DNA of 64,000 nucleotides from NCBI GenBank assembly GCA_012839345.1, contig DUNN01000028.1, positions 1 to 64,000 of the forward strand, written 5' to 3'. This document shows positions 51,620 to 54,839 of this stretch, piece after piece (position 1 is the stretch's first letter; each line of letters begins with the position of its first letter). A program made the translations under genes and the position numbers. The stretch comes from Clostridiales bacterium. GTDB taxonomy: Bacteria; Bacillota; Clostridia; Oscillospirales; Acutalibacteraceae. The notes under the pieces are model-generated. The model was not told the origin of the DNA. It did not search any database and was given only the letters and a program-made list of their open reading frames with translations.

Positions 51620-52723
51620 ATGCCTTTCGAAATTGACAACGATTTTGACAACATCGTTCAAATAAAAGTTATCGGTGTTGGCGGCGGCGGCGGAAACGCC
51701 ATTGACCGAATGGTTACTATGGGCGTGCAGGGCGTCGAGTTTATCAGCATCAACACCGATAAGCAGGCTCTTTACCGTTCCAAAGCAACGCAAAAGATTC
51801 AAATCGGCGAGAAAGTGACACACGGAAAGGGAGCGGGCTCTAAGCCTGAAATGGGGCAGAAGGCTGCGGATGAAAGCCGGGAAGCCATCGCCGCGGCTCT
51901 GCGCGGCAGCGATATGGTGTTCATTACCGCTGGAATGGGCGGTGGAACCGGTACCGGTGCGGCGCCTACGGTGGCCGAGCTGGCCCGGGACATGGGAATT
52001 CTGACCGTCGGCATTGTAACCAAACCCTTTGAATTTGAGGGGCGCCGCCGTATGGAGCAGGCGGAAAGCGGTATCGCGGCCCTGCGCGAGCATGTGGACT
52101 CCCTTGTTGTCATTCCGAATGAACGGCTGAAGCTGGTCAGTGAACAGCGGATTACCCTGTTGAACGCGTTTTCCATCGCGGATGACGTGCTCCGTCAGGG
52201 CGTGCAGAGTATCTCGGATTTGATTAAGCTGCCGGGTTTGGTAAACCTGGACTTTGCGGACGTGACTGCGGTTATGAAGGACGCCGGCTACGCCCATATG
52301 GGTGTGGGACATGCCTCCGGTAAGGACAAGGCGGAAGCGGCCGCAAACATGGCGATTTCCAGCCCGCTTTTGGAAACGGCCATCAACGGTGCAAAGGGCG
52401 TTATCATAAACATTACTTCTTCCCCCGATATTGGTCTGGACGAAATCGAAACTGCTTCTTCCATGATTTCTGCGCAGGCGCATGAAGACGCGAACATCAT
52501 TTGGGGCGCCGCATTTGATGAAAACATGGATGATGAGATGAGCGTTACGGTAATTGCAACGGGCTTTTCCACCGTTAACCCGCCGGAAGGCGCAGCGGAC
52601 AGGCAGCCAGTTGCCGGAAAACAGCCGGAAAAGGCAGACAGTGCGGTTCCGCAGGCTCAGAAATCCAGCCCGATTGACGATGAGGATTTTACCGACATCA
52701 TGTCGATTTTTAACCGTAAATAA
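51620..52723 (+). CDS. ftsZ: Cell division GTPase FtsZ
   Basis: FtsZ polymerises into the division ring. The 367 residues have the GTP-binding [15 protein letters not shown], the tubulin signature [12 protein letters not shown] (near 106), and the T7-loop [12 protein letters not shown] variable linker ends in the conserved C-terminal peptide [15 protein letters not shown], which binds FtsA or SepF. I chose ATG 51620, 9 bp after AAGGGGG; ATG 51611 touches that site. ftsA is not in the cluster, as in many clostridia. Confidence 0.97.
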
Positions 52724-52740
52724 TGGTCCAAAATCCTTTT

Positions 52741-52773
52741 GGCGTGCCTCGCATATGCGGGGCACGCCTTTTT
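52741..52773 (+). terminator. Terminator of ftsZ
   Basis: GGCGTGCC pairs with GGCACGCC and the inner TCGCAT with ATGCGG, followed by TTTTT. It closes the division cluster. Confidence 0.92.
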
Positions 52774-53028
52774 CTAAGCGGTTTTTAGCAACCCTTTGCG
52801 GGATTGCAGCTCACCGGGTTTTGCTCATCCGAAAAAAAGAATCTCACAATATTAGCAGCCTATTATTTCCTTCCTTTGTGGGAAATACTATTGTAGGGGT
52901 TTCCGCGCTTTCGAAATTCAAATCGACCGGTTTTGGGCCAGTTTTTCCTCTAATTCGTTCAAATAAGCCTAAATTTAGTATTATAAGACGAATTTCAATA
53001 AATATTGCCCAAAATACTGAGTTTGCTC

Positions 53029-53056
53029 TTGTATTCTCGTCATATTATGATATAAT
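53029..53056 (+). promoter_or_regulatory. Promoter of the corA transcript
   Basis: TTGTAT (53029-53034) and TATAAT (53051-53056) have a 16-bp spacer. The preceding 52774-53028 is AT-rich and shows no gene, RNA or repeat that I can support. Confidence 0.7.
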
Positions 53057-53106
53057 ATCATTCGGATAAAGCCTGAGTGAAAATACATATTTGAGGAGGT
53101 GGCATT

Positions 53107-53220
53107 GTGAACCCGGACCCTTTCAGTCGAAGCTTCATTCAATTTCATACAGGAGATGAGTGCAATGCTGACCTACTTCAAAACCATCGACGGCCACATC
53201 TCAGAAATTCCGGCCTGTGA
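53107..53220 (+). CDS. Candidate Mg2+-sensing leader peptide of corA (MgtL-like uORF)
   Basis: A strong Shine-Dalgarno, AGGAGGTGG (53094-53102), lies 7 bp before GTG 53107. The frame encodes a 37-residue peptide starting Met-Asn-Pro-Asp-Pro-Phe and ends at TGA 53218-53220, overlapping corA by 56 bp in another frame. The Salmonella mgtA leader peptide MgtL begins Met-Glu-Pro-Asp-Pro and senses Mg2+ through unstable translation of acidic-proline codons; corA also has a leader ORF there. The similarity, the ribosome site and the gene downstream are seen; the regulatory role is inferred. Confidence 0.55.
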   Translation: MNPDPFSRSFIQFHTGDECNADLLQNHRRPHLRNSGL

Positions 53221-54088
53221 ACCAGGGTGCTGGATAAATTGTGTTGCGCCGAATGATGCTGAGATTAACGGCCTGATTGCCGATTTTGGTATTGAACCGG
53301 ATTTTTTTCGTGCCGCAATGGATGAGGAGGAATCCTCCCACATCGATTATGAAGACACCAGCACATTGGTGATTCTTGACATTCCTGTGGTGGAGAAAAG
53401 CGGAAAGAACATTACTTACACCACTATGCCGCTCGGCATCATCTTAACCGAAAAAAACGTTATTACGGTATCCATCCGCGAAAACGCCATTATCAACGAG
53501 TTTTCCGAGGATGTTGTAAAAGGCGTGCAGACCAACCTGAAAACCCGTTTTATATTGCAGATGATGCTCCGGATTGCCACGAAGTATCTGCAATATTTGA
53601 AACAGATTGATAAAATCAGCGATTTCGTGGAGCGCGAGCTACGGAAATCCATGAAGAATTCTGAACTGATTCAGCTGCTGGATATTGAAAAATCACTGGT
53701 TTACTTTTCTTCTTCGCTGAAAGGCGATGAAATTACCATCGAAAAAATTATGCGCGGGCGTGTAATTAAGCTTTATGAGGAAGACCAGGATCTTCTGGAA
53801 GACGTTCTAATCGAAATTAAGCAGGCCATTGAAATGTCGAACATTTACCTGAACATTTTGTCCGGCACCATGGATGCATTTGCGTCCGTCATTTCCAATA
53901 ACCTGAACATTGTTATGAAGGTGCTGGCCTCCATTACCCTGCTGATCTCCATTCCAACCGTTATTACCGGTTTGTACGGAATGAACGTCACCGGCCTTCC
54001 GATGGCCAATTTCTGGTTCCCCGTCGCGATATCAGCCGCATGCATGGGAATTACGTATTTGATTCTCCGTAAAAAAGATATGTTTTGA
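53165..54088 (+). CDS. corA: CorA-family Mg2+ transporter
   Basis: The 307-residue protein belongs to the CorA/CNNM-independent Mg2+ channel family: a long cytosolic N-domain (to about 245) with many charged residues and two C-terminal membrane helices linked by the YGMNV loop, which carries the selectivity motif. The start MLTYFKTIDGHISEI matches clostridial CorA proteins. AGGAG lies 9 bp before ATG 53165; ATG 53156 touches it. The leader ORF overlaps the start, which suggests coupled or competing translation. Confidence 0.94.
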   Translation: MLTYFKTIDGHISEIPACEPGCWINCVAPNDAEINGLIADFGIEPDFFRAAMDEEESSHIDYEDTSTLVILDIPVVEKSGKNITYTTMPLGIILTEKNVITVSIRENAIINEFSEDVVKGVQTNLKTRFILQMMLRIATKYLQYLKQIDKISDFVERELRKSMKNSELIQLLDIEKSLVYFSSSLKGDEITIEKIMRGRVIKLYEEDQDLLEDVLIEIKQAIEMSNIYLNILSGTMDAFASVISNNLNIVMKVLASITLLISIPTVITGLYGMNVTGLPMANFWFPVAISAACMGITYLILRKKDMF

Positions 54089-54100
54089 ATTTTCTTTTGA

Positions 54101-54129
54101 TTGCAAAAGGATGCGGTTTGTGATATAAT
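54101..54129 (+). promoter_or_regulatory. Promoter of the fumarase beta subunit transcript
   Basis: TTGCAA (54101-54106) and TATAAT (54124-54129) are 17 bp apart, giving a 5' leader of about 170 nt. Confidence 0.85.
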
Positions 54130-54150
54130 TTCTAAATCGACTTATAGAGG

Positions 54151-54286
54151 GTTCTGCTTTCAGAACGGAGGTTTCCCGCACAGCGGTTCTGCCGAATGGC
54201 AGTTCGGTTTCTTCGGTTCAGCAATCTTATATTATGTAATAAAAATAGGAATTGAAAAATTAGGGAACTGCGATGGCAGTTCCCTA
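54151..54286 (+). promoter_or_regulatory. Structured 5' leader with mutually exclusive hairpins
   Basis: H1: GTTCTG-CTTT-CAGAAC (54151-54166). H2: CTGCC-GAAT-GGCAG (54189-54202). H3: 11 perfect pairs from 54261-54271 with 54276-54286 around GATG. The right arm of H2 continues as GGCAGTTC and can pair instead with GAACTGC in the left arm of H3. This is the design of a riboswitch or attenuator; no known riboswitch class was recognised, and the U run after H3 is weak. Confidence 0.5.
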
Positions 54287-54308
54287 TTCTGGTATTTTGG
54301 AGGTTAGC

Positions 54309-54839
54309 ATGGACAGACTTATTGTTCCTACGGAAGAAATTGAAGAAGCCGCAAAAAAACTGCGTGCGGGGGATCGCATTCTTCTGAGCGGTACCATCTA
54401 TACAGCGCGGGACGCTGCCCACAAACGGATATTTCAGTTGTTGGACGAGGGCAAGCCGCTTCCGTTTGATTTAAAGGGAGCCTGCATTTATTATGCCGGG
54501 CCCACTCCGGCTCCAGCGCACCTGCCTATTGGTTCCTGTGGGCCGACCACTTCTTCCCGCATGGATGTGTTTACCCCTCGGTTGCTTGACCTGGGGTTGA
54601 AGTGCATGATTGGAAAAGGCGGGCGTTCACCGGAAGTGGTGCAGGCCATTCAACGGAACGAGGCGGTTTATCTTTGCGCAATCGGCGGCGCAGGGGCGCT
54701 GGCCGCGCAGTGCGTGCGTTCGTTAGAGGTGATCGCGTTTGAAGACCTTGGCTGTGAATCCGTCAAACGTCTGCAGGTTGAAAATTTTCCGCTGATCACA
54801 GCAATCGACTGCCGTGGGGGCAGCTTGTTTGAAGCGTAA
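54309..54839 (+). CDS. Fe-S fumarate hydratase/tartrate dehydratase, beta subunit
   Basis: The 176-residue protein is the beta subunit of a class I (4Fe-4S) hydro-lyase that adds water to fumarate or acts on tartrate. Marks are LRAGDRILLSGTIYTARDAAHKR, YYAGPTPA, IGSCGPTTSSRMD and GKGGRSPEV near 104. ATG 54309 has TGGAGG at 6 bp. The alpha subunit gene, normally adjacent, is absent on both sides here (CorA before, CDF exporter after). Whether the enzyme is fumarase or tartrate dehydratase cannot be told. Confidence 0.88.
   Translation: MDRLIVPTEEIEEAAKKLRAGDRILLSGTIYTARDAAHKRIFQLLDEGKPLPFDLKGACIYYAGPTPAPAHLPIGSCGPTTSSRMDVFTPRLLDLGLKCMIGKGGRSPEVVQAIQRNEAVYLCAIGGAGALAAQCVRSLEVIAFEDLGCESVKRLQVENFPLITAIDCRGGSLFEA

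Follow-up and report, generated by a model that had tools for sequence, protein, structure and literature searches.

A leader peptide encoded upstream of corA, the gene for a CorA-family Mg2+ transporter, is conserved in many Clostridia and probably signals low Mg2+ to the cell. Its hallmark is an acidic residue followed by Pro at codons 4 and 5 of a short open reading frame (ORF) with its own Shine-Dalgarno (SD) sequence, and this acidic-Pro motif is conserved at the level of the peptide and at that specific codon position. Sensing of Mg2+ through ribosome stability is already known from MgtL and its relatives in enteric bacteria, and the primary paper on intrinsic ribosome destabilization is said to be that of Chadani from 2017. 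The leader described here lies in another phylum and in front of another target gene.

The window, by which we mean the whole 64,000-nt stretch of DNA that was analyzed, is contig 5 of a 36-contig, 2.53-Mb genome whose closest named relative among the best 80 named-genome loci is Anaeromassilibacillus senegalensis (Acutalibacteraceae), with 80% CorA identity. Here ftsZ is followed by a terminator-like hairpin and then by corA (Table 1). A preliminary description of this DNA had placed a 37-codon ORF with a perfect SD sequence at a spacing of 7 ahead of a Mg2+ transporter gene that it overlaps by 56 bp in another frame, and all of these statements hold. The transporter gene is corA by its Pfam match, and the reported ORF, MNPDPFSRSFIQFHTGDECNADLLQNHRRPHLRNSGL, is confirmed as real and far from chance. 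Its start lies 58 nt before that of corA, and the extended −10 element presumed to belong to the promoter of the corA leader RNA lies about 50 nt 5′ of the leader start; the genus consensus at this −10 element reads TGT-TATAAT. An in-frame ATG at 53156 was considered as the start of corA and is less likely than ATG 53165 because the SD sequence would adjoin it directly. The window ORF and three further leaders had no Pfam match at E ≤ 0.001, none of eight leader peptides matched NCBIfam at E ≤ 1, and in positions 52700-54400 of the window no Rfam family, the M-box (RF00380) included, was matched at E values up to 1. On the other side of corA, the stretch 54101-54310 leading to a fumarase C-terminal-domain gene (PF05683) contains a promoter-like TTGCAA-17-TATAAT with TG and an 11-bp hairpin (54261-54286), and a cation-efflux (CDF) gene (PF01545, 54849-56072) lies two genes 3′ of corA.

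Table 1. Features of the corA leader region, in window coordinates
Feature	Position	Strand	Basis and remarks
Terminator-like hairpin 3′ of ftsZ, separating ftsZ from corA	52741..52768	+	Terminator scan
Extended −10 TGA-TATAAT, presumed promoter of the corA leader RNA	53048..53056	+	Sequence reading; absent from promoter scan listing
Leader SD sequence AGGAGG	53094..53099	+	7 nt before GTG; sequence reading
RNA segment 1, leader SD and start, 5′ helix arm	53096..53109	+	Alignment, folding
Leader peptide ORF	53107..53220	+	37 codons, GTG start 53107-53109, TGA end 53220, MNPDPFSR...
Codons 3-5, Pro-Asp-Pro, proposed sensor motif	53113..53121	+	Asp4-Pro5 as in E. coli mgtL
corA SD sequence AGGAGA	53151..53156	+	8-nt spacing to ATG 53165; GGAGA kept in the aligned overlap class
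RNA segment 4, corA start codon and next codons, 3′ helix arm	53161..53174	+	Alignment, folding
corA, CorA-family Mg2+ transporter, GMN motif	53165..54088	+	PF01544, 1e-52

The preliminary description had proposed to judge the leader by whether the ORF, its start, and its early codons persist in relatives while other codons drift, and this is the pattern found. Nine of 10 other genomes of the genus retain an SD sequence (at least 4/6), the GTG start, and M-[K/N]-P-D-P, codons 3-5 among them, and codons 9-15 drift; the later codons overlap corA and the corA SD sequence. Codons 2-5 in the genus read AAA/AAC/AAT-CCT/CCG-GAC-CCT, and the leader SD sequence of the relatives mostly reads GGGGGTGG. 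The tenth relative (locus L009) keeps the codons with no SD sequence seen on a contig that stops 188 nt upstream of corA. Nine of the ten leaders with an SD sequence, the window copy included, share their end position inside corA, with L011 as the one that differs.

On a wider scale, leaders were counted by a strict rule requiring an SD-led ORF (at least 4/6 matches to AGGAGG) that encodes M-x-[PSAGTC]-[DE]-P, with codon 3 restricted to the residues named. Such a leader lies within 300 nt upstream of corA at 158 of 265 loci and is absent from the other 107, where the 265 loci include near-duplicates (243 remain after dereplication) and five weak CorA paralogues (L026-L030) were left out of all counts. 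By set, it is found at 59 of the best 80 CorA loci from named genomes, at 64 of 89 loci sampled evenly from the order (CorA is present in 89 of 295 genomes, and all 89 loci were read), and at 23 of the 82 loci read from the 129 CorA genomes of the class outside the order; the sets share some organisms and omit some genus relatives. The strict leader spans 11 family labels in the order and 12 further ones in the class. Carriers include Flavonifractor plautii, Butyricicoccus pullicaecorum, Ruminococcus callidus, and Intestinimonas butyriciproducens as well as Thomasclavelia cocleata, Longicatena caecimuris, and Faecalicoccus acidiformans of the Erysipelotrichales, and the leader was not found in the corA upstream regions of Clostridium tetanomorphum and C. 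rhizosphaerae. The leader overlaps the corA start at 22 of the 158 loci and ends 0-70 nt before it at 100.

Chance controls give far lower counts. Dinucleotide-shuffled upstream regions produced 23 strict leaders in 5300, compared with the 158 in 265 real regions, and the remainder of the same loci contained 8 in 1258 kb when both strands were read. No strict leader was found in 40 windows upstream of mgtE, sampled from 171 genomes of the order (0/40). In the genome from which the window comes, a relaxed pattern occurs at six places, including the corA leader, and at two in the reversed control. An unbiased scan, in which dipeptides were tabulated at codons 2-9 of SD-led upstream ORFs from the 243 dereplicated loci, ranked Asp-Pro at codons 4-5 first, with 97 loci compared with a shuffle mean of 0.05. 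Glu-Pro occupied the same codons in 16 loci (0.1 when shuffled), and Asp-Pro at other codons occurred in 0-2 loci.

The codons themselves point to selection on the peptide. Among 117 representatives with less than 75% mutual identity, codon 4 is GAC in 84, GAT in 19, GAA in 8, and GAG in 6, and codon 5 is CCT in 70, CCG in 26, CCC in 14, and CCA in 7. Given the variable third positions and the exchange of Asp for Glu, we consider the leader peptide to be constrained. These representatives were picked by motif, so it is the third positions, the Asp/Glu exchange, and the unbiased scan that carry weight. Codon 3 encodes Pro, Ala, or Ser in 102 of the 117 representatives, with Pro3 in 66 of the 158 strict leaders, and codons 7-9 favor Ser/Gly and Arg/Lys. 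Codon 2 encodes Asn in the window and Ser, Asp, Lys, or Asn in most relatives, and it is acidic in 27 of the 158.

The setting of these leaders is one of Mg2+ homeostasis, and it differs between lineages. Neither an M-box nor an MgtE above cut-off was found in the 11 genomes of the window's genus, where one sub-cut-off MgtE match contains stops (L278). Across the 295 genomes of the order, 89 have CorA, 171 have MgtE, and 9 have both, so that the two transporters are seldom found together (Fisher p 1.6e-29, with kinship uncorrected). M-boxes were found in 17 of the 295 genomes under stricter filters. Loci for a separate M-box scan were hand-picked and comprised 57 of the 158 with and 80 of the 107 without a strict leader. 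Among the former, eight have an M-box 5′ of the leader on the corA strand (L193, L194, L198, L202, L212, L218, L219, L228), and in three of these (L218, L219, L228) the leader starts 73-76 nt past the M-box, after a terminator-like hairpin with a U-run. Six of the 80 loci without a strict leader also have an M-box. Two M-box loci with the same upstream sequence (L197, L058) carry an MDIDP leader that falls outside the strict rule, and the M-box locus L249, without a strict leader, has an SD-led MNGDL ORF. We also observed SD-led ORFs that keep Asp4 and not Pro5 beside the M-boxes of L174 (MDGDG) and L220 (MECDT), possibly leaders that are decaying or altered. The idea that the leader simply replaces the M-box is too simple because M-boxes occur with strict leaders, with MDIDP leaders, and without strict leaders.

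At the RNA level, complementarity between the leader start (segment 1) and the corA start (segment 4) is conserved in the window clade. The resulting helix 1:4 has 96% of its cells paired in 16 aligned overlap-class sequences, compared with 35-66% for slid registers; 8 of its 14 pairs are invariant, and one pair is changed on both sides in four sequences. The window copy can form 12 of the 14 register pairs and folds with a shifted variant of the helix. This alignment contains 16 of the 22 overlap-class loci, as two were omitted as near or exact copies (L005, L111) and four because the leader start pairs inside the leader (L041, L043, L055, L091). When the leader start is masked in folding, the mean unpaired probability of the corA AUG increases from 0.02 to 0.43, with a rise in 16 of 16 sequences that is largely due to removal of the helix partner, and access to the corA SD sequence in the same class falls from 0.49 to 0.35. 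The fold stability of the window leader RNA is not unusual relative to shuffles (z 0.51).

Where the leader stops short of corA, the best partner of its start is in most cases a stretch of late leader codons or the sequence just past them. Compared with 60 shuffles (p ≤ 0.05), the leader start is more complementary to downstream sequence in 51/82 representatives with a short gap, in all 12 with an overlap, and in 9/23 with a long gap; the corresponding figures for the corA SD sequence and its upstream sequence are 32/82, 1/12, and 5/23. For the late leader and the anti-SD segment, where both segments lie in order, complementarity exceeds that of shuffles in 23/34 cases with a short gap and 5/17 with a long one. 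Helices 1:2 and 2:3 covary in a clade of 13 sequences that includes Agathobaculum members: helix 1:2 is 87% paired and has 12 cells that differ on both sides, and the figures for helix 2:3 are 97% and 13 cells. The paired percentage, both-side cells, and covariation score of these helices were matched by 0 of 500 shuffles, and the number of covarying pairs (2 in helix 1:2 and 3 in helix 2:3) by 172 and 129 of 500, in tests that kinship can inflate. Helix 3:4 in the same 13 sequences is 78% paired and has no covariation. The structures for this alignment were taken from one member, and it contains 13 of the 16 members of the clade (L159, L163, and L180 omitted).

Loci with longer gaps offer a suggestion of transcription attenuation. 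A terminator-like hairpin is present in 16 of the 31 loci with a gap of at least 85, several of them near-duplicates, and hairpins scoring at least 13 occur in 9 of 31 long-gap loci compared with 7 of 310 shuffles. Attenuation is only a suggestion because complementarity between the late leader and its 5′ arm in long-gap loci was no better than in shuffles (mean z −0.36, n = 16). Flavonifractor-type loci (L051, L053, L054, L062) have terminator-like hairpins with U-runs between leader and corA, possibly a transcriptional version of the switch. As a separate observation, four loci (L193, L202, L189, L197) have MD[T/A/I]DP leaders of about 40-50 codons that share a late-leader stretch and a downstream stretch (GTCAAAAGCTACTC); the two stretches look complementary, with duplex z of −5 to −7 in L193, L202, and L189.

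We judge it likely that the leader ORF encodes a cis-acting peptide whose translating ribosome serves as the sensor of low Mg2+; the abort of the ribosome, the response to Mg2+, and the direction of control are parts of this scheme that we infer. A nascent M-x-x-[Asp/Glu]-Pro chain would be hard to hold at codons 4-5, and ribosomes in low Mg2+ would, by extension from MgtL, pause or fall off there. The stalling of ribosomes on Asp-Pro repeats in B. subtilis without EF-P, eased by YfmR (PMC11381351), also speaks for this reading. Ribosomes re-loading at the leader start would then hold open segment 1. Since segment 1 of the window clade otherwise pairs with the corA start, occupancy of the leader start would free that start, and with 58-71 nt separating the two starts in this clade a second ribosome would fit if the first stays near codon 5. 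In ample Mg2+, read-through in the overlapping frame would block the start of corA and allow the helix to form again. Elsewhere, segment 1 would pair with the late leader codons (segment 2), which could alternatively pair with an anti-SD sequence (segment 3) and so free the corA SD sequence (segment 4) in the manner of mgtQ; read-through would cover segment 2 and close corA. In each case the outcome would be more CorA in low Mg2+, which is the useful direction.

A two-state folding model was used to compare these situations. Mean access to the corA SD sequence and start was 0.33 with no ribosome, 0.43 after abort, and 0.45 with full translation. Abort exceeded no ribosome in 59 of 82 cases and exceeded full translation in 38 of 82; a margin above 0.2 favored abort in 8 cases and full translation in 15. 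Access after abort drops when the late leader is shuffled (mean abort-minus-full difference −0.026 for the real sequences compared with −0.077 for 20 shuffles, sd 0.013). Because the model shows no preference for abort, the proposed direction of control rests on the geometry and on the analogy with mgtQ. Also weighing against the scheme are the fall in access to the corA SD sequence on masking of the leader start, the missing covariation of helix 3:4, the ease with which shuffles reach the numbers of covarying pairs in helices 1:2 and 2:3, the mostly invariant helix 1:4, the ordinary fold stability of the window leader, and the 107 loci without a strict leader.

Several known systems can be compared with this leader, the nearest being MgtL of E. 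coli and Salmonella mgtA. According to PMC11282234, ribosomes dissociate at low Mg2+ because of the EPDP motif of MgtL, and EttA alters mgtL translation in E. coli. The preliminary description had likened the start of the window peptide to MgtL, which is correct in that MNPDP here and MEPDP in E. coli MgtL have Asp4-Pro5 at the same codons; the clostridial leaders further share the frequent Pro3, basic residues soon afterward, and a place upstream of a Mg2+ uptake gene. The sequence likeness noted is limited to the motif. In contrast to MgtL, which is M-E-P-D-P upstream of mgtA, the window leader has Asn at codon 2 and corA as its target, its host is one of the Firmicutes, and the clostridial leaders overlap or abut corA. 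Most of them have one acidic residue, whereas MgtL has E2 and D4, and their output is proposed to lie at the corA start rather than in Rho-dependent termination as in MgtL. Of the earlier claim of an MgtL-like Mg2+ sensor, a leader that would work like MgtL is supported by motif, codon position, and Mg2+ transporter context, and we do not claim that the leader is MgtL because target and sequence differ.

MgtQ, which lies between two genes of an operon in Salmonella mgtC-mgtB, is described in excerpts of PMC8092293 as forming helices 1:2 and 3:4 or, alternatively, helix 2:3, which frees the downstream ribosome-binding site. The leaders resemble it in having early acidic codons in a short ORF, and in the Agathobaculum clade a layout of the same kind may exist, with covariation in helices 1:2 and 2:3, none in 3:4, and no decision from the two-state model; unlike them, MgtQ in those excerpts has 8 codons with D2 and E5 and not D4-P5, and the window clade uses a different helix, 1:4. 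CorL is an upstream ORF (uORF) in the corA 5′ region of E. coli and Salmonella, as is the window leader in its own corA 5′ region, and translation of CorL represses corA in a Mg2+-modulated manner (PMC11552253). In the sections of that paper at hand, CorL differs in being Rho-dependent, in its UUG start, and in having fewer acidic and Pro residues with one conserved Pro, and no D4-P5 motif was found for it there. The M-box (RF00380) also exerts Mg2+ control from 5′ regions and precedes some of the same corA genes, whereas it is the M-box RNA itself that binds Mg2+ and no match to it exists in the window region or the 11 genus genomes. The Mbox-uORF2 (pe20) of M. tuberculosis likewise combines an M-box with a short, conserved uORF that has a conserved proline; as far as the consulted text of PMC12810186 goes, the peptide differs in being mycobacteria-specific, in having Pro at position 7, and in its target genes. 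None of the matches listed from the open-licence PubMed Central literature describes a corA leader peptide in Firmicutes, and the main text of a structured-RNA survey with uORF motifs (PMC8632094) does not contain "corA".

Other explanations of the same leader have to be weighed. It is unlikely that the leader is a sensor of translation quality that signals, by a pause at Asp-Pro, too little EF-P, ABCF protein such as YfmR, or charged prolyl-tRNA, with corA as one output. This reading takes its appeal from B. subtilis without EF-P, in which Asp-Pro repeats stall ribosomes and YfmR eases the stalling (parts of PMC11381351 and PMC11990639), on reporters with repeated Asp-Pro as compared with the mostly single acidic residue of the leaders, and from the effect of EttA on mgtL translation noted above. 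A general gauge of translation fits poorly with a leader that is found upstream of corA and in none of the 40 mgtE windows, with a window genome that shows the corA leader plus matches near control level, and with the occurrence, in other clades, of leader and M-box, a Mg2+ riboswitch, in one 5′ region. Plain translational coupling, by which leader translation would open the corA start for constitutive rather than regulated expression, is less probable again. Coupling would accommodate a leader stop close to the start of corA or past it, as many loci have it (the 22 overlaps and 100 short gaps among 158), the sequestration of the corA start codon by segment 1, and a two-state model with no preference for abort over full translation; what it leaves unexplained is one fixed acidic-Pro pair across 23 family labels with later residues drifting.

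The least probable of these alternatives is that the conserved element is an RNA structure, such as a riboswitch-like element or a protein site, with the reading frame as a by-product. The leader-start nucleotides are nearly invariant in the window clade (GGTGGCATTGTGAA) and are complementary to the corA start, as such an element would have it. Asp-Pro is nevertheless fixed at codons 4-5 with variable third positions and Asp/Glu swaps, length and later sequence drift while the start, SD sequence, and codons 4-5 stay, and no Rfam family matches the window region.

A Mg2+-sensing leader peptide remains our preferred reading, and we lean toward a broader view in which a large, undescribed family of such leaders, M-x-[P/A/S]-[Asp/Glu]-Pro, controls corA in many Clostridia and Erysipelotrichales. 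This family would be independent of MgtL while using the same codons, would act in series with an M-box in some lineages and where no M-box was found in others (this genus included), and would have had its output re-wired several times, through start-codon pairing with frame overlap, a ribosome-binding-site attenuator, and possibly a terminator. Independent evolution from the enterobacterial MgtL is plausible because both the phylum and the target gene are different. If this is true, the ribosome would be a general gauge of Mg2+ with codons 4-5 as its preferred readout, and Clostridia in which neither M-box nor MgtE was found would have a means of Mg2+ control. The tandems of M-box and leader would also allow two kinds of Mg2+ sensor to be compared on one transcript.
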